IMG/VR virus record: IMGVR_UViG_3300031857_000313
Span: 1-49,075 of that record
DNA from: a virus
Strand: one strand, 5' to 3'
Length of the DNA: 49,075 nt
Positions 28,740 through 35,179 of this stretch are shown one piece after another. Both the position numbers and the translations under genes were made by a program. Position 1 is the stretch's first letter. Every line of letters begins with the position of its first letter. Below the pieces are notes generated by a model, which was not told the origin of the DNA, did not search any database, and saw nothing but the letters and a program-made list of their open reading frames with translations.

Positions 28740-28958
28740 TCAAACCTCCCACACAACTAATGCGGTGTACAGGGCAACAAGAAACAAAGCGTAGGCAACC
28801 CAAGTTGCAATTCGGCGCTGAGAGAACTCAGGCTCAATGTTGAGTAAAGCCATTTGCAGAAGCTCTGCGTCATGACTCATGTCGTTGCGTTTGGGAGGGG
28901 TGTAGCGACACCCAATCTGAAGACCAGACTTGGTCGTGTAGGGAAGTTGTTTATCCAT
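28740..28958 (-). CDS. Small membrane protein, first gene of leftward operon
   Basis: 72 residues from ATG 28958, chosen for its strong AAGGAG 7 bp upstream. A basic soluble N-terminus (MDKQLPYTTKSGLQIGCRYT) and a C-terminal TM helix (IATWVAYALFLVALYTALVV). It is the first gene after the leftward promoter at 28994-29021 and is preceded by a small stem-loop leader. Confidence 0.65.
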   Translation of the reverse strand: MDKQLPYTTKSGLQIGCRYTPPKRNDMSHDAELLQMALLNIEPEFSQRRIATWVAYALFLVALYTALVVWEV

Positions 28959-28973
28959 TGATTTCTCCTTAAC

Positions 28974-28986
28974 CGCCGTATCGGCG
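28974..28986 (-). promoter_or_regulatory. 5' stem-loop at predicted leftward transcript start
   Basis: On the minus strand CGCC-GATAC-GGCG forms a 4-bp stem with a 5-nt loop immediately downstream of the -10 (predicted start about 28987), followed by GTTAAGGAG. The arrangement matches the leaders at 33772, 34229 and 34954. Confidence 0.55.
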
Positions 28987-28993
28987 TACGCGA

Positions 28994-29021
28994 ATCTTAA
29001 CACGGTGTTAAAAGCAGTCAA
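28994..29021 (-). promoter_or_regulatory. Leftward early promoter
   Basis: On the minus strand: -35 TTGACT (29021-29016), 16-bp spacer and -10 TAAGAT (28999-28994) preceded by an extended TGT. The spacer contains TTTTAACACCGTGT. This resembles the rightward promoters near 33.75, 34.2 and 34.93 kb. It would drive the SSB/nuclease operon. Confidence 0.75.
28997..29011. promoter_or_regulatory. Palindromic operator candidate
   Basis: TTAACACGGTGTTAA is a perfect 15-bp palindrome (single central base) lying across the spacer and -10 of the leftward promoter. It is the best operator candidate for the Cro/YdaS-like protein encoded 85 bp away. Confidence 0.6.
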
Positions 29022-29043
29022 CACAATCCCGACTAAATTGTGT
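29021..29043. repeat. Inverted repeat in divergent control region
   Basis: ACACAAT (29021-29027) and ATTGTGT (29037-29043) form a perfect 7-bp inverted repeat with a 9-bp spacer, between the leftward -35 and the rightward promoter. It may be a second operator. Confidence 0.55.
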
Positions 29044-29055
29044 GGTTTCTTTTAA

Positions 29056-29074
29056 TTTAAAGTTAATGTATACT
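29056..29074 (+). promoter_or_regulatory. Rightward promoter candidate
   Basis: TTTAAAGTTAATGTATACT: a good -10 TATACT at 29069-29074, with TTTAA starting 13 bp upstream as in the other promoters of this phage. The -35 (TTTCTT around 29046) is weak, so activation or low basal use is possible. It lies 22 bp before the Cro/YdaS-like gene. Confidence 0.55.
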
Positions 29075-29095
29075 TGTCGCCAAGGAAGAACAAAA

Positions 29096-29299
29096 ATGAA
29101 ATTGCGTGAGTATTTTGAGACGGAACCGCTAGGCGCCAGAGGAGAGATGGCGGCGCATCTTGGCATCAGTTTGACATGGATGTCACTGTTGATCCACGAG
29201 CGCAGAACTGCTTCTGCCGCGTTAGCTGTTAAGATTGAAAAAGCAACACAAGGACTGGTCACAAGAAAAGACTTGCGTCCAGATTTGTTTTTCGTGTAA
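29096..29299 (+). CDS. Cro/YdaS-like HTH regulator
   Basis: 67 residues from ATG 29096 with CAAGGAAG upstream. MKLREYFETEPLGARGEMAA then HLGISLTWMSLLIHERRTAS and ALAVKIEKATQGLVTRKDLR follows the YdaS/Cro-like layout: an HTH covering about residues 16-45, and the 'xxRxDLxPDxF' end. It likely binds the palindromes in the adjacent divergent region and controls early promoters. No CI partner is visible, so it may act as a Cro-like timing regulator rather than in lysogeny. Confidence 0.8.
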   Translation: MKLREYFETEPLGARGEMAAHLGISLTWMSLLIHERRTASAALAVKIEKATQGLVTRKDLRPDLFFV

Positions 29300-29316
29300 A
29301 GTTTGAGGCACGGCTA

Positions 29317-29338
29317 GGTAGGGCTTGATCACCCTGCC
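29317..29338 (+). promoter_or_regulatory. Stem-loop before replication gene
   Basis: GGTAGGG (29317-29323) pairs with CCCTGCC (29332-29338), one G-T pair, around an 8-nt loop. It lies between the regulator and the replication gene. No U-tract follows, so it is an mRNA structure rather than a proper terminator. Confidence 0.4.
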
Positions 29339-29398
29339 GAAAAGCGTTCCATCCCCGCCTGCCGCTGTTTCTTTTTGGGATGTGTTATTGGGATCGGT

Positions 29399-30145
29399 AT
29401 GCACTACTTTCAATTCAATATTGGCGACTATAGAGCCGCCACTGCGCATCTTTCAAACGAAGAGGATCTTGCTTATCGCAGGCTTCTCGACATGTACTAC
29501 GACACCGAACAAAAGATCCCATTGGATACCCAGTGGGTTGCCAGACGGTTGCGAGTCGATACCAAGACGGTTGACGCTGTACTTGCGGACATGTTTGTCA
29601 AACAAGAGGATGGATGGTTTCATGCTCGTTGCCAAGTTGTGATTGAGCACTATCACGCCATGGCAGAGAAAAACAGGACTAATGGAAAATTAGGTGGTCG
29701 TAGAAAGAACCCAGTGGGTAACCCAGTGGGATCCGACTCGGAACCCAGCGCTAAGGCAACTAATAACCAAGAACTAATAACCAATAACGAATCTAAAGAA
29801 GCTAAAGCTTCTCCTGACATCGGCAAGCCGAAGTCAGTGCCCCCTGCACCAATTCAGGAAATAGTTGAGATGTATAACAACATCCTTCCTGAACTGCCAC
29901 AGACTATCGTTGTCAACGATTCTCGTAAAAGAGCTATAGCCGCCAGATGGCGTGAGGTTGTCACTGCTGACAAACTTGACAGACAAGGTGGCTTGGACTT
30001 TTTCAAGTGGTACTTTGAGATGGTCAAGACCTCGAAGTTCCTGACAGGCAAATCTAAGGACTGGAAGGCTGACATGGACTTCCTGTTCAACCCAAGCAAG
30101 TTTCCCCGAATCATCGAAGGCACATACCACAAGGATCAAAAATGA
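29399..30145 (+). CDS. DUF1376-containing replication protein
   Basis: 248 residues from ATG 29399 (MHYFQFNIGDYRAATAHLSN), the start that opens the DUF1376 domain; a GTG/ATG further upstream would add a non-conserved leader. DUF1376 (residues 1-85, with LAYRRLLDMYYDTEQKIPLD) is joined by a polar linker to a C-terminal domain (ILPELPQTIVVNDSRKRAIA, then FFKWYFEMVKTSKFLTGKSK). DUF1376 plus such a tail is typical of phage replication initiators or organisers. With no polymerase or helicase in the window, this protein probably recruits host replication enzymes. Confidence 0.8.
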   Translation: MHYFQFNIGDYRAATAHLSNEEDLAYRRLLDMYYDTEQKIPLDTQWVARRLRVDTKTVDAVLADMFVKQEDGWFHARCQVVIEHYHAMAEKNRTNGKLGGRRKNPVGNPVGSDSEPSAKATNNQELITNNESKEAKASPDIGKPKSVPPAPIQEIVEMYNNILPELPQTIVVNDSRKRAIAARWREVVTADKLDRQGGLDFFKWYFEMVKTSKFLTGKSKDWKADMDFLFNPSKFPRIIEGTYHKDQK

Positions 30146-30564
30146 GTTACGCATCAGCCAAACAGCGCTACGCTGAAAAAACAACAGATACATTTGATGG
30201 CCCTGAAAGCCATGACTGCTTTGCCAATGGTTGCCCCATGGCTGGTGGTATCTCCACTGGTGGCAAATGGGTCTGTGCCTACCACCATCAGGCTACTTCG
30301 GACATGTGGCCTCGTGTGACAGAAGCTCTGCGTGATGCTGAGAGCATCCGTGTTGCGATCAACGAAGTCATGAAGATCGACATGATCTCTTGGGGCGCCA
30401 TGGTCAACGGCTATCCACCCAAGTGGCAAGAGTTTGCCGCTCTGTTTGACGACCAGCCAGAGCTTCAGCCGACTGAACACGAGAAGATCCGCAAAACAAA
30501 GTACGAATACCGCCTGCGCAACGAGCTGGCTATTCGTGCAGGCTTAGCAAAGAGAAAGGTATGA
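30142..30564 (+). CDS. Small zinc-binding replication-region protein
   Basis: 140 residues. HDCFANGCPMAGGISTGGKW followed by VCAYHHQATSDMWP gives Cys26, Cys31, Cys45 and His48/49, a likely zinc site of the 'CxxxGCPxxGxxxxxxxWxCxxH' type seen in phage proteins beside DUF1376 genes. The rest is helical. The start overlaps the replication gene (ATGA). It may be an accessory of replication initiation; that is inference. Confidence 0.75.
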   Translation: MSYASAKQRYAEKTTDTFDGPESHDCFANGCPMAGGISTGGKWVCAYHHQATSDMWPRVTEALRDAESIRVAINEVMKIDMISWGAMVNGYPPKWQEFAALFDDQPELQPTEHEKIRKTKYEYRLRNELAIRAGLAKRKV

Positions 30565-30779
30565 CAAAGCATGAAGCCCAAAAAATCCTCGACCAAATCC
30601 GCGAGGGGTATGGTCATGCCTACACCGAGGCTTGCGCCATCGAATGTCTGTATCTCACAGGAGACCTTGGAGCACATGAAGCAATGCGAAGCTCGGGAAT
30701 GGATGAGCAGGTACGAGAAGAAGGCTATCGAGAAAGGCTCCGCTGGCGCGCAATTATGGTGGCAAGGAGTAAAGAATGA
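30561..30779 (+). CDS. Small unknown protein (LTGDL motif)
   Basis: 72 residues with ATGA overlaps at both ends. The first half (EAQKILDQIREGYGHAYTEA, then CLYLTGDLGAHEA) is a known pattern of tiny phage proteins ending about 'LTGDL'. The second half is Arg/Glu-rich and lies over the overlapping gene at 30676, so it may be an extension created by the overlap. Confidence 0.6.
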   Translation: MTKHEAQKILDQIREGYGHAYTEACAIECLYLTGDLGAHEAMRSSGMDEQVREEGYRERLRWRAIMVARSKE

Positions 30780-30897
30780 CATCGCAAAACGAAGAGGCAA
30801 ACCAGCTTGTGACGACCTTGTCCAAAGAATGCAAAATGAACGCAACTTGCGTAGAGCTGGACTTCCCCCCAGCAGAGCTGTTTCCCAACAGAGCTAA
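30676..30897 (+). CDS. Overlapping small basic protein in another frame (DUF7696-like)
   Basis: From ATG 30676: MKQCEAREWMSRYEKKAIEK, then AQLWWQGVKNDIAKRRGKPA and DDLVQRMQNERN. The 'CEAREW...WWxxVKxDIxxRRG' pattern looks like a real small phage protein family. Yet it overlaps the LTGDL gene by 104 bp and the RusA-like gene by up to 122 bp in other frames. AGGAG lies 11 bp upstream. Either true overprinting, or one of the frames is decaying. Confidence 0.45.
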   Translation: MKQCEAREWMSRYEKKAIEKGSAGAQLWWQGVKNDIAKRRGKPACDDLVQRMQNERNLRRAGLPPSRAVSQQS

Positions 30898-31204
30898 GGG
30901 TGTTCATTGGGGACGATTACATAAACTGCGCGCAGACTATCGAGAGAACAGTGCGTGGTTAGCAAAACACCAACTGAAGGGATGGAAACATGCCGGCAAA
31001 GAGTTGATGTTGACGTTGACGTTTGAAATGCCAGACAAGCGTAAGCGTGATGCAGATAACTGCCTAGCCGCGGCCAAGGGAGCTTTAGACGGATTGGCTG
31101 ACGCGATGAATGTAAATGACCAGCTTTTTCAACCAATCTTGATTTACCGCGTAGCCGGACAAAAGCCCGGCAAAATTTCAATCAAAATCGAGGAACAAAC
31201 ATGA
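30776..31204 (+). CDS. RusA-like Holliday junction resolvase
   Basis: 142 residues from ATG 30776, which has a strong AAGGAG 6 bp upstream and an ATGA overlap. The in-frame ATG at 30835 (MNATCVELDFPPAELFPNRA) better matches the usual RusA start, so it is a serious alternative. RusA motifs: PPAELFPNRAKGVHWG near the start, the metal-binding DADN (Asp92 and Asp94), then KGALDGLADAMNVNDQ (Asp115). It would resolve branched DNA before packaging. The neighbouring recombination genes support this. Confidence 0.85.
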   Translation: MTSQNEEANQLVTTLSKECKMNATCVELDFPPAELFPNRAKGVHWGRLHKLRADYRENSAWLAKHQLKGWKHAGKELMLTLTFEMPDKRKRDADNCLAAAKGALDGLADAMNVNDQLFQPILIYRVAGQKPGKISIKIEEQT

Positions 31205-31554
31205 GCGGAAAACTTATTGACCCTAACGACGCAGTGGACTTTATGATTGCCCACTCCGCCAAATATGCCGAGGCCGAGGCCAACAAGGTGTTTATGGAGG
31301 AGCTAAGGAAGACAATCAAGGCCGAGGAAATGAAAAACGCTGAGATTTATGGAAATGGCGAGTACAAGACCGCCGCCATGCAGGAACGCGAAGCCTACGC
31401 CTCCCCACGCTACAAAGAGCACTTAGAAGCCCTTAGACAAGCCGTACAGGAGCGCGAACGCCTCAGATGGCTCCTGATAGCCTGTCAGGAAAGAATCGCT
31501 GTATGGCGCTCTATGGAGGCTTCTAACCGCCACGTAGAGAAGGCCACCCTGTGA
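31201..31554 (+). CDS. Coiled-coil small phage protein
   Basis: 117 residues, Ala/Glu-rich helices: DAVDFMIAHSAKYAEAEANK, then KTAAMQEREAYASPRYKEHL and an Arg-rich coiled coil. The 'KTxxxQExxAYASxxYKxxL' element is common in phage small proteins next to RusA genes. Starts and ends in overlaps (ATGA, GTGA). Function unknown. Confidence 0.7.
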   Translation: MSGKLIDPNDAVDFMIAHSAKYAEAEANKVFMEELRKTIKAEEMKNAEIYGNGEYKTAAMQEREAYASPRYKEHLEALRQAVQERERLRWLLIACQERIAVWRSMEASNRHVEKATL

Positions 31555-31823
31555 ACAACTCCCTCACCGCCAAGGAAAAAGCCTATGTCGGGTTGGTCAA
31601 GGAGCTCCCCTGTTCTGTGTGCGACCAAGAGGGGCCCAGCGACGCCCATCACGTCAAACAGCACAGGCAGTACACCGTGGTGGCTCTGTGCAAGTCCTGC
31701 CACCAAGGAAGCAAGATGGGCTGGCACGGCGAGCGCAGGGCGTGGGCCATAGCCAAGATGGAGGAGATCGACGCCCTAAACGTGACGATTCAGAGGGTGA
31801 TGGAGCTGTTGATCAAGAGGTAG
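31551..31823 (+). CDS. HNH-like zinc protein / putative endonuclease
   Basis: 90 residues from GTG 31551. LPCSVCDQEGPSDAHHVKQH then VVALCKSCHQGSKMGWHG gives Cys21, Cys24, His33/34, Cys47, Cys50, His51 and His59. This is the layout of small HNH-type or recombination nucleases with a zinc ribbon found in phage nin-like regions. A C-terminal helix follows. It may nick DNA in recombination or packaging. The start overlaps the upstream stop (GTGA). Confidence 0.75.
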   Translation: MNNSLTAKEKAYVGLVKELPCSVCDQEGPSDAHHVKQHRQYTVVALCKSCHQGSKMGWHGERRAWAIAKMEEIDALNVTIQRVMELLIKR

Positions 31824-31849
31824 GGTTTGTTTCTTTTTTGTTCTTTTTT

Positions 31850-31893
31850 TTGACATAAAACTAGCCTACGATTTCATGGCAACAATAGGTTGC
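31850..31893 (+). promoter_or_regulatory. Putative promoter and 5' stem-loop
   Basis: TTGACA at 31850-31855 and a possible -10 TACGAT at 31867-31872 (spacing only 11). The stem-loop GCAAC-AATAG-GTTGC at 31879-31893 starts 7 bp after that -10, as in the other leaders of this phage. The T-rich stretch at 31826-31850 also may terminate the upstream transcript. The promoter call is weak; the stem-loop is clear. Confidence 0.45.
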
Positions 31894-31909
31894 GCTAACG
31901 GGGTAAATC

Positions 31910-32125
31910 ATGAAATTTGAAATAGAGTTTGGTTGGATTGGAAATGAGAAGGTTACGATCGAGTCATGGGATTTCGAAAAAATTACCGAGATACATAATT
32001 TCATCCAATTCATGGAAGAAAACGGCTGGGCGGTTGACTATGAAGCAGTTGAGCCTGATGATGAAGATGATACGGAAGAAGAAGAAGTGATACCTGCGGG
32101 GTTGGTTTCAGACAACACTCTGTAA
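31910..32125 (+). CDS. Small acidic protein
   Basis: 71 residues. MKFEIEFGWIGNEKVTIESW then FIQFMEENGWAVDYEAVEPD and a run of acidic residues. It sits alone between two stem-loops with no close upstream gene. Negative charge and small size would fit a DNA-mimic or inhibitor, but nothing specific is visible. Confidence 0.6.
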   Translation: MKFEIEFGWIGNEKVTIESWDFEKITEIHNFIQFMEENGWAVDYEAVEPDDEDDTEEEEVIPAGLVSDNTL

Positions 32126-32141
32126 CTTATAAGCTACAAAA

Positions 32142-32170
32142 GGGGCTTACTTCGCTAAGAGGTAAAGCCC
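32142..32170 (-). terminator. Terminator of the minus-strand island
   Basis: On the minus strand GGGGCTTTAC ... GTAAGCCCC (32170-32142) forms a stem with one bulged base, followed by TTTTG. It overlaps the last codons and stop of the membrane peptide at 32147 and would end the island transcript. Confidence 0.65.
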
Positions 32171-32290
32171 CACATTTGAAAAAGCATATCCGATATATAC
32201 CATTGCCATATACGGGTTCCCTTTGAAGAGTTGTTCCCCCGCAATGTAGGCGTAGATAAGCCCAGTGATGATGATTAAAGGCCCACTCAT
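32147..32290 (-). CDS. 47-residue membrane protein
   Basis: MSGPLIIITGLIYAYIAGEQ then NPYMAMVYIGYAFSNVGLYL: two hydrophobic stretches, likely two TM helices. ATG at 32290 overlaps the upstream stop (TGATG). I recall similar tiny membrane proteins from phages, of unknown role. It is followed by the terminator. Confidence 0.7.
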   Translation of the reverse strand: MSGPLIIITGLIYAYIAGEQLFKGNPYMAMVYIGYAFSNVGLYLLAK

Positions 32291-33282
32291 CAGAACTCAC
32301 TCACGTCGTAGACTTGGCCCCTGAACTCGATCAACCCCTCTCCAAATTTATGGCACAGCTCTGGCCACAACAATCGACCATTGAAAAAGTTTAATACAGC
32401 AAAACCACTACGGTGATTGCTTGGATTTAGTTCGGCATAGGTAAATTGAGGGCCGTCAATTTCAGCCAATGTTCCGGTATCGACCCCAAACCTCACGCCA
32501 TTATAATCACTGAACGGCGTTACTTTTAAGGAATGTAAGTGCCCACTAACCAATGAAACTCCCGCTTGGACGGTGTTGTTATGGGTAGCATGAATTCCGC
32601 CCTTATATCGGTGTTTGATAATGCACTGATCAGTAGGCCACACTGCCCAGCAAAAGTCCCAATCTGGGATATGGTCGGTGAGTTTAAACCCTTGAACTTC
32701 TTTAAACTGTGGCGCATGTTGAGCAAGCCTGTTGCCAAACCGAATGTCATGATTACCCCATGTAAACAGGAGCTTTACATTATGACGGGCGGCTTTAGCG
32801 ACCTCCTCAATCTCGCCTAAAGCACCCTGACAAGCTTTTAATTCTTGAATGACAGAGGTCTGTGGCTGGTCAGTTACATCATGTCTTGATATAGACGCAC
32901 CGTCAAATGCGTCTCCATTGCAAATCACAACCTGAGGGGCAAGCTCTTGTATCATGTACAAAAGCCCTTTAAACGCTGTGGAGCGTTGACCGGGTATGAA
33001 GTGAGCATCAGAAAATACAATTACACAGCCGTCCAGCATCCCAAGTTCAACTTGTTTTAGTGGAGAAAAAGATTTTGGTCTGCTGGCATCATATTTAGCA
33101 CTCCGAGTGTCTATACCGCCTAATTTGATATTATGGGTTTCTTCCATACTACGTCTGCGGTAGTTCACTGCTCTTTCGGTAATGCCTAGAATCTTTGATA
33201 ATTTTGTAACAGATTGATGCCTGTCCCACAGTTCTATAAACTGCTCATCTGTACAAGAATTCAGGTTATTACTTGATACCAT
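32290..33282 (-). CDS. Metallophosphoesterase with N-terminal HTH
   Basis: 330 residues. Residues ~12-46 look like an HTH (SVTKLSKILGITERAVNYRR). The rest has every calcineurin-like motif: VFSDAHF (Asp92, His94), CNGDAFD (Asp124), TWGNHD (Asn177, His178), HATHNN (His231, His234) and SGHLH (His248, His250). It would be a metal-dependent phosphatase or nuclease of the MPE family. The HTH suggests DNA as substrate or target. It overlaps the zincin gene by 14 bp, is on the strand opposite its surroundings, and forms a separate transcription unit. Confidence 0.85.
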   Translation of the reverse strand: MVSSNNLNSCTDEQFIELWDRHQSVTKLSKILGITERAVNYRRRSMEETHNIKLGGIDTRSAKYDASRPKSFSPLKQVELGMLDGCVIVFSDAHFIPGQRSTAFKGLLYMIQELAPQVVICNGDAFDGASISRHDVTDQPQTSVIQELKACQGALGEIEEVAKAARHNVKLLFTWGNHDIRFGNRLAQHAPQFKEVQGFKLTDHIPDWDFCWAVWPTDQCIIKHRYKGGIHATHNNTVQAGVSLVSGHLHSLKVTPFSDYNGVRFGVDTGTLAEIDGPQFTYAELNPSNHRSGFAVLNFFNGRLLWPELCHKFGEGLIEFRGQVYDVSEF

Positions 33283-33646
33283 GAGAATCCTTTGATGAGA
33301 GCAGGCGCTCTAACAAGTTAATAATTCGGTGCTCCTCTTTCTCCAAATCATCTTCACTGGATTTTGGATCTTGGGCTACCGTCATAAGATCGTGCAAAAA
33401 AACATGAAGTAACTCGTGCAGGGCTGTCTTGTCAAGGCTCTCTGGGGTAATCTTCTCCGCACCAAAGTCACCTAAGCGGTATATAGCCAACCTAGCCCCA
33501 TCATTAAATTCAACCGAAGCCATTGCTTGTTTGGCCGGCTTCAATCCTTTTTCAATTCTCCAGTCGCCAAGATTCAACACTTGTTGCCAATTTTTGACAC
33601 TTTGTGCAAACAATTCAGCGTGTTCTGACGTAGGAATGTTAGGCAT
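33269..33646 (-). CDS. Zincin-like metalloprotease (HExxH)
   Basis: 125 residues. LDKTALHELLHVFLHDLMTV holds HELLH (His77, Glu78, His81) plus His85, the usual zinc-binding arrangement of small phage zincins. The upstream part (LGDWRIEKGLKPAKQAMASV) is typical of the family (SprT-like and ImmA-like relatives). A C-terminal coiled coil follows. Cleavage targets are unknown; a role in antagonising host proteins is possible. First gene of the minus-strand island. Confidence 0.8.
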   Translation of the reverse strand: MPNIPTSEHAELFAQSVKNWQQVLNLGDWRIEKGLKPAKQAMASVEFNDGARLAIYRLGDFGAEKITPESLDKTALHELLHVFLHDLMTVAQDPKSSEDDLEKEEHRIINLLERLLSSKDSHGIK

Positions 33647-33682
33647 TACAAGACCTTATACAAACTTTATTACACTTTTATT

Positions 33683-33703
33683 TAATAAATAGATTATTTA
33701 TTA
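33683..33703. repeat. Perfect 9-bp dyad in AT-rich region
   Basis: TAATAAATA (33683-33691), GAT, TATTTATTA (33695-33703) is a perfect inverted repeat in the divergent 159-bp gap. It overlaps a second dyad at 33697-33720. Candidate operator or origin-like structure. Confidence 0.7.
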
Positions 33704-33720
33704 GGGTTTGTCCTAATAAA
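33697..33720. repeat. Second 9-bp dyad overlapping the first
   Basis: TTTATTAGG (33697-33705), GTTTGT, CCTAATAAA (33712-33720) is a perfect inverted repeat sharing its left arm with the previous one, so the two structures are mutually exclusive as hairpins. Confidence 0.7.
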
Positions 33721-33736
33721 AATATTTTCAAAAGAC

Positions 33737-33766
33737 TTCACAAGCGCTTTAACTTCGTGTTAAGAT
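33737..33766 (+). promoter_or_regulatory. Promoter, repeated family member
   Basis: -35 TTCACA (33737-33742), 18-bp spacer and extended -10 TGTTAAGAT (TAAGAT at 33761-33766). TTTAAC-TTC-GTGTTAA within it has an inverted TTAAC/GTTAA. The same layout occurs at 34192 and 34918 and, on the minus strand, at 28994. Confidence 0.75.
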
Positions 33767-33771
33767 GCAAT

Positions 33772-33802
33772 CACTGCAATCCGCAGTGTTACTTGAAAGA
33801 CC
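33772..33802 (+). promoter_or_regulatory. 5' stem-loop leader with TTACTTGAAAGACC
   Basis: CACTGC-AATCC-GCAGTG (33772-33788) starts at the predicted transcript start, followed by TTACTTGAAAGACC and the ATG 4 bp later. That 14-base string is repeated exactly at 34576-34589. Confidence 0.75.
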
Positions 33803-33805
33803 AAA

Positions 33806-34129
33806 ATGAGACCCATCGTAAAAGCCGCTCTGGCAATCCCTGAAATGCAATTCGCATTCGAGTGCATCTGTGCAGATGACTCACGCAAGTTTGGGAAAGA
33901 AATTACCCCTGACTTTTACTGTGACGAAGTCATCGTGAGCGAGGCTGAGTACCGCCTCTCTACCTACTTTGAAGACGGGCACATCAACGACGATATGCGC
34001 TTAGGTGAAGAAGGCGCCGAAGGCAAGAAGATTGCCCAGAAGGACGTTCGTATGCTCAAGGCGTTCATCAAGAAGTACAAGACCATGGACAGCATGTGGA
34101 GCAAGTACACCAACCACTTGATCAAATAA
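33806..34129 (+). CDS. Small unknown early protein
   Basis: 107 residues. MRPIVKAALAIPEMQFAFEC then EAEYRLSTYFEDGHINDDMR and a Lys-rich helix (QKDVRMLKAFIKKYKTMDSM). No recognised family. It has its own promoter, structured leader and downstream hairpin, so it is expressed as a separate small unit. Confidence 0.7.
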   Translation: MRPIVKAALAIPEMQFAFECICADDSRKFGKEITPDFYCDEVIVSEAEYRLSTYFEDGHINDDMRLGEEGAEGKKIAQKDVRMLKAFIKKYKTMDSMWSKYTNHLIK

Positions 34130-34132
34130 GCC

Positions 34133-34171
34133 AGTAGGGGGGTCAAACCCCCTACTAGGGAAACTACCTAG
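34133..34171 (+). terminator. Strong hairpin with competing stem, terminator-like
   Basis: AGTAGGGGG (34133-34141) pairs perfectly with CCCCCTACT (34148-34156). A second stem CTAGG (34155-34159)/CCTAG (34167-34171) shares bases with its right arm. No U-tract follows, so it may stop transcription inefficiently, protect the 3' end, or switch between forms. Confidence 0.55.
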
Positions 34172-34191
34172 AAAATAATTTAAAAAAAGAT

Positions 34192-34246
34192 TGCACACAC
34201 GCTTTAACTTAGTGTTACAATACATTCACTGCAACAAGCAGGTTAC
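34192..34246 (+). promoter_or_regulatory. Promoter and 5' stem-loop leader, repeated family member
   Basis: TGCACA (34192-34197), 18-bp spacer with TTTAACTTAGTG, -10 TACAAT (34216-34221) with extended TGT. The leader holds CTGC-AACAA-GCAG (34229-34241) near the predicted start, then GTTACATGAAAAAGGA before ATG 34266. Confidence 0.75.
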
Positions 34247-34265
34247 ATGAAAAAGGAAATTGGAA

Positions 34266-34556
34266 ATGACTACTACTACAGCTCTCAAGATCGTTGACCA
34301 ACTCGGTTTGATCGAAGACCAAATTGCCGCTCTGCAAGAGCAGGCAGACGACCTCAAGAACCAACTCAAAATGTTGGGCCAAGGTTCTTACGCTGGCACG
34401 ATGTACGTGACCACCATCAAGCACACCCCAGAGAAGAAAACGACAGCATGGTCTGCCGTTGCCAAAGAGCTGAACGCTCCTGCTGACCTGATCGCCAAGC
34501 ACACCAAGGTCACCTACAACATCCTCGCCGCCGAAACAAAGGCATTGTCAAACTAA
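34266..34556 (+). CDS. Small coiled-coil protein
   Basis: 96 residues from ATG 34266 (AAAAGGAAA upstream; TTG 34260 is less likely). An N-terminal coiled coil (LIEDQIAALQEQADDLKNQL) is followed by a small domain with GSYAGTMYVTTIKHTPEKKT, TAWSAVAKELNAP and LIAKHTKVT. This arrangement is common in phage small proteins of unknown function. It lies directly behind its own promoter. Confidence 0.7.
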   Translation: MTTTTALKIVDQLGLIEDQIAALQEQADDLKNQLKMLGQGSYAGTMYVTTIKHTPEKKTTAWSAVAKELNAPADLIAKHTKVTYNILAAETKALSN

Positions 34557-34560
34557 TCCC

Positions 34561-34589
34561 TGCCCTTCGGGGCATTTACTTGAAAGACC
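34561..34589 (+). promoter_or_regulatory. UUCG hairpin plus TTACTTGAAAGACC leader
   Basis: TGCCC-TTCG-GGGCA (34561-34574) is a stable tetraloop hairpin just after the previous stop, followed directly by TTACTTGAAAGACC (34576-34589), identical to 33789-33802. No good -10 precedes it, so this leader is likely reached by read-through. Confidence 0.65.
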
Positions 34590-34592
34590 ATT

Positions 34593-34907
34593 ATGAACTT
34601 TGAAAACATCTACACAGAAGCCCTCAACGCCGCCAAAGCCGCTGAGTCCGCATTTATGGAAAAGCATGGCGAGCCACTGTACTGTGGCTTTGCTTGGGTT
34701 GACTTGCCAAGCGCTCGTGTTCCCTTTGTGAACTGGTGCAAGAAAAACAATGTCGGTCGCAAGCACTGGCAAAAGGGCTGGTCTATCTGGAACCCAGCCA
34801 ACAACCCAACACAGTCCATGGACGTCAAAGAAGCCGGCGCCTATGCATTCGCAGAAGTCCTGCGCAAGCACGGCATCACAGCTTACGCAGGATCAAGGGC
34901 AGATTAA
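34593..34907 (+). CDS. Small conserved phage protein
   Basis: 104 residues. YCGFAWVDLPSARVPFVNWC, then GRKHWQKGWSIWNPANNPTQ and SMDVKEAGAYAFAEVLRKHG. This 'CGFAWV...WNPxxxxTQSMxxKxAGAxAFAxVLxxHGI' pattern is known from small phage proteins of unknown function. It may bind an anion or ligand, but no catalytic site is seen. Confidence 0.75.
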   Translation: MNFENIYTEALNAAKAAESAFMEKHGEPLYCGFAWVDLPSARVPFVNWCKKNNVGRKHWQKGWSIWNPANNPTQSMDVKEAGAYAFAEVLRKHGITAYAGSRAD

Positions 34908-34912
34908 AAGAT

Positions 34913-34936
34913 GGGGCTTGTGCCCCTCTTTAATTT
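34913..34936 (+). terminator. Terminator overlapping next promoter
   Basis: GGGGC-TTGT-GCCCC (34913-34926) followed by TCTTTAATTT. The -35 of the next promoter (TTGTGC, 34918-34923) lies within the hairpin, so termination and re-initiation are packed together. Confidence 0.65.
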
Positions 34937-34980
34937 CATGTTACAATGCAATCACGCCAATCAGGCGTTTACTTGAAGGA
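34918..34980 (+). promoter_or_regulatory. Promoter and 5' stem-loop leader, repeated family member
   Basis: TTGTGC (34918-34923), 18-bp spacer with TTTAATTTCATG, -10 TACAAT (34942-34947), extended TGT. The leader holds ACGCC-AATCA-GGCGT (34954-34968), then TTACTTGAAGGA, and ATG follows at 34988. Confidence 0.75.
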
Positions 34981-34987
34981 AATTAAA

Positions 34988-35179
34988 ATGGCAAATGAAA
35001 TTGAAACATCATTCAACACTGAAGCGCAAGTCCGCATTAGCGTTGACCAGTACGACAGCGGAGTATGGCTGTGCCTGCAAGGGCGCCGTGCAATGATGAG
35101 CGCCGTAATGACTCGCGCCGAAGCTGAGCAATTGCTGGCTAATTTGCAACTCGTCCTTGCTAAAGAGGTGACAGCATGA
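34988..35179 (+). CDS. Small unknown protein
   Basis: 63 residues. A beta N-terminus (AQVRISVDQYDSGVWLCLQG) and a helix (TRAEAEQLLANLQLVLAKEV). This small alpha/beta layout is common in tiny phage proteins. The stop is coupled to the next start through AGGTGACAGCATGA. Confidence 0.65.
   Translation: MANEIETSFNTEAQVRISVDQYDSGVWLCLQGRRAMMSAVMTRAEAEQLLANLQLVLAKEVTA

Follow-up and report, generated by a model that had tools for sequence, protein, structure and literature searches.

The viral sequence examined here, a 49,075-base record of IMG/VR (IMGVR_UViG_3300031857_000313, hereafter the window), encodes phage replication, recombination, terminase and portal genes and carries, ahead of four small genes, a repeated promoter cassette in which an extended −10 promoter that overlaps a palindrome is followed by a short hairpin at the predicted transcription start (+1) and a Shine–Dalgarno (SD)-like block. 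Three cassettes point rightward (A, B and C) and one leftward (D). A preliminary description of this DNA had recognized the four promoters, each of which is present where it was placed, and had noted a stem at or beside each predicted +1, an arrangement that holds for all four and is fixed in position among relatives. When both strands of the whole window were searched with a rule consisting of a −10, a GC-rich stem 6–8 nt downstream and then an SD and start codon, exactly these four sites matched; the same rule found a mean of 0.73 sites in second-order Markov copies of the window, with 1 of 60 copies reaching four.

Counting from the first T of TTTAA (T0), the cassette consists of TTTAAY (T0 to +5), TG (+10/+11), the −10 hexamer TAnnAT (+13 to +18), a conserved C-A-C (+24 to +26), the stem, which begins at +26 in most copies, GTT(A/T) and the SD-like block, with the start codon of the served gene 54–64 nt past T0. 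A −10 typically lies about 7 nt ahead of +1, and we accordingly place the predicted start at the conserved A at +25, which is preceded by C (C in 81 and A in 87 of 93 copies). The GC-rich stem then starts 7–8 nt past the end of the −10, at the predicted +1.

Public viral contigs contain many further copies. A first scan, with the promoter and TCAC fixed and the stem unspecified, returned 58 contig pieces where our estimate was fewer than one; a second, which ignored TTTAA and the stem letters and fixed TTACTTGAA, returned 65 stretches. Every hairpin-bearing match that was new had TTTAAY as well; the 11 chance matches had neither and, lacking TTTAA, were taken out of the copy set. Scanning for the TCTAA form brought in a sister group. 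Cassettes were found on 130 fetched viral contig pieces, not all of them independent as some share a contig, and 148 distinct copies remained once chance matches had been removed. The closest annotated relative is a 57-kb record labelled siphovirus, whose terminase is 64.6% identical, and near-identical isolates of the window phage were not found in the phage collection. Across 84,980 species genomes the promoter pattern matched seven times, six times without a hairpin and once, in a Burkholderiales bin, on a contig that looks phage-like; a longer pattern matched only that same genome among 300 genomes of the order. Given this near-absence of hairpin-bearing matches, the cassette is unlikely to be a host element.

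The hairpin is held in place while its sequence changes. A stem of at least 4 bp lies at offsets 24–27 in 144 of the 148 copies, compared with 26 on average (maximum 42) in shuffled leaders and 83 (maximum 96) when the left half of one copy was joined to the right half of another. Starts of GC-rich 4-bp stems fall at +26 (120), +27 (24) and +25 (10), with every other offset within 0–59 empty, so that the outcome named beforehand as contrary to the idea, a stem position not conserved in relatives, did not materialize. Many stem types occur (CTGC/GCAG, CGCC/GGCG, CCGC/GCGG, CCAC/GTGG, CGTC/GACG, CGCT/AGCG and CGGTC/GACCG), bearing out the earlier view that structure rather than sequence is conserved, and the compensatory changes proposed as support for it are present in two sets. 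Among 18 distinct hairpins with 5-nt loops, pairing is 100%, three of the four pairs have changed on both sides and none of 500 shuffles reaches the covariation score; in the leftward leader, which is orthologous in 13 phages, CGCC, CGTC and CGCT stems are every one paired, and again 0 of 500 shuffles reach the score. Wobble (G-U) variants, CGGTC/GATCG and CGGTC/GGCCG, argue that the hairpin acts as RNA. The constant loop size suggested by the four window sites is only roughly true: among 144 copies 5 nt is commonest (70), followed by 6 (32), 7 (21), 3 (16) and 4 (5), the 3-nt loops being mainly of the leftward type, which can alternatively be written as 4 bp with a 5-nt loop. In 91 of 93 copies the second loop nucleotide is A, and the flanking GTT(A/T) is likewise conserved. 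The placement extends to other promoters, as in the distant relatives L110 and L111 the hairpin still begins 6–7 nt past TATAAT, and TACAAT-N6-GCTGC-AATCC-GCAGC is found in MW202879, a second annotated Manatee Spring phage, which is labelled myovirus. Since the single-hairpin folding energies of the four window sites are ordinary (z of −0.5, +0.7, −0.3 and −1.2), the evidence for the hairpin is comparative.

Comparison also demonstrates the spread and shuffling of the cassette. The served genes form about 36 unrelated small-gene families with a median of 98 amino acids (aa), counted with ATG preferred over TTG starts lying inside TTACTTGAAGG; one family carries several stem types, one stem type serves many families and identical 85-mers precede different families. 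Window positions 33708–33792 (−40 to +45 of cassette A) recur letter for letter in L021 ahead of an unrelated gene, and the gene at 34988, behind cassette C, is preceded by a cassette in the window, L036 and L077, while in many relatives it directly follows another gene with no cassette between. These patterns are best explained by mobility, whole units probably shifting by recombination between unrelated small genes.

Table 1. Cassettes, served genes and related sites in the window
Feature	Position	Strand	Remarks
Cassette A promoter core TTTAACTTCGTGTTAAGAT	33748..33766	+	palindrome TTAAC-N5-GTTAA 33749-33763
Cassette A extended −10 TGTTAAGAT		+	−35-like TTCACA 33737-33742
Cassette A hairpin ACTGC-AATCC-GCAGT	33773..33787	+	predicted +1 = A33773; one extra C-G pair possible
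Cassette A leader block TTACTTGAAAG	33789..33799	+	SD-like; upstream of gene at 33806
Gene served by cassette A	33806..34129	+	107 aa; no match in PHROG search
Second palindrome TTAGG-N6-CCTAA, far position	33701..33716	+	upstream of cassette A; centre near −64 from predicted +1
Cassette B promoter core TTTAACTTAGTGTTACAAT	34203..34221	+	
Cassette B hairpin CTGC-AACAA-GCAG	34229..34241	+	one unpaired nt after predicted +1 (A34228)
Gene served by cassette B	34266..34556	+	96 aa, function unknown
Second palindrome TAGG-N7-CCTA (TAGGGAAACTACCTA), far position	34156..34170	+	upstream of cassette B
Cassette C promoter core TTTAATTTCATGTTACAAT	34929..34947	+	
Cassette C hairpin ACGCC-AATCA-GGCGT	34954..34968	+	begins at predicted +1
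Terminator-like hairpin GGGGCTTGTGCCCC	34913..34926	+	adjoins cassette C; TTTAATTT within its tail
Gene served by cassette C	34988..35179	+	63 aa; homologues elsewhere often without cassette
Cassette D core TTTAACACCGTGTTAAGAT	29012-28994	-	leftward; palindrome 28997-29011; −35 TTGACT 29021-29016
Cassette D hairpin CGCCG-ATA-CGGCG	28986-28974	-	one unpaired nt after predicted +1 (28987)
Gene served by cassette D	28740..28958	-	72 aa, small protein, function unknown
Operator-like site TTAAT-N5-GTTAA	29052..29066	+	in promoter of YdaS-like gene
YdaS/Cro-like regulator gene	29096..29299	+	67 aa; PF15943, 8e-13; candidate binder of palindromes
Cousin leader hairpin GCAAC-AATAG-GTTGC	31879..31893	+	6 nt past TACGAT (31867-31872)
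Promoterless UUCG hairpin TGCCCTTCGGGGCA	34561..34574	+	3' of 34266 gene; shares only TTTACTTGAAAG with cassettes

The palindrome embedded in the promoter is most likely an operator for the phage's own YdaS/Cro-like protein, whose binding is predicted here. The full 5+5 TTAAC/GTTAA form, first described as common to the four promoters, is found only in cassettes A and D, the other two having one relaxed half; the guess that it may be an operator gains support from its covariation, from a site at the YdaS/Cro-like gene and from its consistency within each phage. Palindromes of this kind number four in the window (at 28997, 29052 and 33749, all intergenic, and at 29679, within a gene) against 0.17 in Markov copies, and the intergenic ones lie in the promoter of the regulator itself, where the site is retained in relatives, as well as in those of cassettes A and D. 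In the sister group the form is TCTAAC-N5-GTTAGA, and position 15, which none of the scan patterns fixed, covaries with position 1: C1 occurs with G15 in 46 of 49 copies, T1 with G15 in 14 of 95. Loci with at least two copies are T-only in 52 cases, C-only in 16 and mixed in 3, and the helix-turn-helix of the YdaS-like proteins differs between the T and C operator groups, so that YdaS type tracks operator type. The leftward cassette and the YdaS/Cro-like gene point away from each other, and neither a CI gene nor an integrase was noticed among the genes examined.

Many copies have a second palindrome upstream, TAGGG-N5-CCCTA or TTAGG-N6-CCTAA. Its centres lie near −45 (46 copies) or near −65 (36) from the predicted +1, with three more at −55.5, −57 and −76.5, a pattern that was not predicted beforehand and whose counts are uncorrected for relatedness. 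Copies with the near site match a −35 at a mean of 3.1 of 6 positions, which is near random (2.7 when shuffled), compared with 4.1 in other copies. The steps of about 10 bp suggest a phased DNA-binding activator, for which a phage protein would be a candidate.

Taken together, we regard the element as probably, if by no wide measure, a mobile early-promoter cassette carried by freshwater phages and repressible by the YdaS/Cro-like protein, with a +1 hairpin that blocks attack by RppH and RNase E. Host RNA polymerase, using a host sigma factor, would read the extended −10 promoter, whose spacer and −10 overlap a 15–17-bp palindrome (TYTAAY-N5-RTTAR) serving as the putative operator, and repression there would leave cassettes on early and off later. 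Transcription would begin 7 nt beyond the −10, at the conserved A, giving an RNA with 0–1 unpaired nt and then a GC-rich hairpin of 4–6 bp; such a 5' end may be a poor substrate for RppH and for the 5'-end pocket of RNase E and could make short messages longer-lived, while the SD beyond the hairpin (TTACTTGAAGGA or GTTTA...AGGA) would remain open. Recombination would carry whole cassettes between unrelated small genes. RppH and RNase E prefer or need single-stranded 5' ends, and the Bacillus enzyme requires at least two unpaired nt (PMC3997798); unpaired A residues added to a natural 5'-hairpin RNA destabilized it (PMC5360333). Folding of the predicted RNAs leaves 0–1 unpaired nt 5' of the stem, with the SD unpaired in the three rightward leaders, and it is this, together with the single-strand preference of the two enzymes, that leads us to 5'-end protection with moderate confidence.

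Several points weigh against this interpretation. The SD region of the leftward leader can pair in the predicted fold; 4-bp stems are modest, whole-leader folds range from −5.5 to −10.8 kcal/mol and no leader is clearly stabler than its shuffles; and the loop almost always begins with AA, which simple end protection does not need. The cassette counts carry no correction for relatedness, the match between YdaS type and operator type could come from shared ancestry alone, and part of the symmetry of the palindrome, which overlaps required −10 letters, may be a promoter constraint.

In another reading, an RNA-binding protein of the phage or its host would recognize the +1 hairpin, contacting the AA-starting loops and the GUU(U/A)A flank, and would control translation or decay of the served genes as one group. 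The near-constant A at loop position 2 and the conserved flank fit such a protein, and a single structure ahead of many genes would suit a trans-acting factor; we treat this as an unlikely but serious alternative: loop length varies from 3 to 7, the stems and the rest of the loop vary freely, and no gene for an RNA-binding protein was identified near the cassettes. Somewhat less probable still is that the cassette is mainly a recombination handle, as proposed for the promoter-early stem-loops (PeSLs) of T4, with a hairpin that has no role as RNA; identical 85-mers ahead of different families, and gain and loss of the cassette around the same gene, fit such a handle, yet one acting purely through homology should keep its sequence, whereas here the stems compensate at a fixed position and include G-U pairs, which matter only in RNA.

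HK022 put RNA sits at the transcript start, and the location of our hairpin would suit a put-like or nut-like element that alters RNA polymerase for terminator read-through. We consider this very unlikely, because the cassettes precede individual short genes and some adjoin a terminator-like hairpin, and what they form is a single tiny hairpin without an Rfam match rather than the larger put fold. Small multi-copy hairpins close to early-gene starts also recall the single-stranded DNA hairpin promoters used by the N4 virion polymerase. In N4, however, the hairpin lies around −11, whereas here it is downstream of a good extended −10 and its G-U pairs indicate RNA; the two largest proteins have no PHROG match of any kind and no polymerase was found, making this explanation extremely improbable. 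Chance, or plain duplication of one sequence, has next to no probability: random sequence often yields short stems and many of the copies are closely related, but the position profile, the shuffles, the exchanged arms and the many stem types refute it.

We found no published description of the cassette in a literature search that misses most subscription journals. The nearest known kinds are PeSLs and the extended start-associated sequences (ESAS), neither of them known to have been described with a +1 RNA hairpin. A 2014 title by Comeau reportedly presents PeSLs as promoter-terminator motifs, in which the stem-loop is the terminator. Our cassettes share with PeSLs a promoter within a short, repeated, mobile intergenic unit (148 distinct copies with an extended −10), identical copies ahead of unrelated genes and, in some copies, an adjoining upstream terminator-like hairpin; they differ in that this upstream hairpin occurs in those copies only, that the hairpin studied here lies downstream at the predicted +1, lacks a T-tract and covaries, and that the phages do not look T4-like. 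PeSLs of T4-like phages are small mobile cassettes of early promoter and stem-loop before variable small genes (PMC4503421). The start-associated sequences (SAS) and ESAS of cluster K mycobacteriophages are likewise multi-copy inverted repeats with a ribosome-site block ahead of a subset of non-structural genes, but ESAS are 17-bp repeats whose variation does not support RNA pairing (PMC3203893), unlike the covarying 4–6-bp stems here. The 13-bp SAS GGGATAGGAGCCC is not enriched in the window, where 0.52 matches with 2 mismatches were expected and 2 occur, both away from the cassettes. PeSL-like in mobility, the cassette resembles stabilizing leaders in its predicted 5' end: 5'-terminal hairpins that stabilize mRNA by blocking RppH and RNase E go back to Emory 1992, as cited in PMC5360333, and they compare with the stem 0–1 nt from the predicted 5' end and the accessible SD of the rightward leaders, although here the hairpin comes as a regular component of a mobile cassette present in multiple copies in many phages and would stabilize by analogy. 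For the operator, YdaS of CP-933P, an analogue of Cro, recognizes palindromes in the promoter of its own gene; the CP-933P sites have the consensus GTTTAGTAA and lie in the immunity region and at PL (PMC8630535); there as here palindromes overlap promoters near the ydaS gene, its own included, whereas TTAAC/CTAAC sites here extend across many small-gene promoters.

If these phages do pass on promoter, operator, 5' RNA shield and ribosome site as one complete unit of expression, new small genes would arrive already regulated and with stable messages. More tentatively, and short of thinking it probable, we conjecture a phage-wide regulatory plug that gives each acquired gene a promoter, a Cro-matched operator, an optional helix-phased activator-like site replacing the −35 and a cap-like +1 hairpin, by which genes would join one coordinated early regulon merely by recombining beside a cassette. 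With its 148 natural stem and loop variants, the cassette lends itself to direct tests of 5'-end protection in a natural setting, and it is a sequence handle for early regulons and orphan early genes of freshwater phages without isolates.

A contig (L084 1–2500) from a Burkholderiales metagenome-assembled genome has two cassettes and many small open reading frames and resembles phage sequence; it gives a weak hint that the hosts are Burkholderiales. Rfam returned no match above the gathering threshold in the window, with only a sub-threshold snoRNA match in the region, and a tRNA search of the window found none.

Similar leaders lacking a clear promoter had been reported at 31879 and 34561. 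The hairpin at 31879 is a real cousin: it lies 6 nt past TACGAT, and relatives with protein identity as low as 51% retain it. Positions 31850–31893 read TTGACATAAA...TAnGAT, the two boxes being 11 bp apart, and carry a +1-type hairpin; this promoter may form a separate class. The leader at 34561, promoterless as noted, has a different stem and was dropped as a cassette member, since only the TTTACTTGAAAG that follows is common. Its CCCUGCCC-UUCG-GGGC hairpin, between two genes at 34558–34590, is almost unchanged in 13 relatives.

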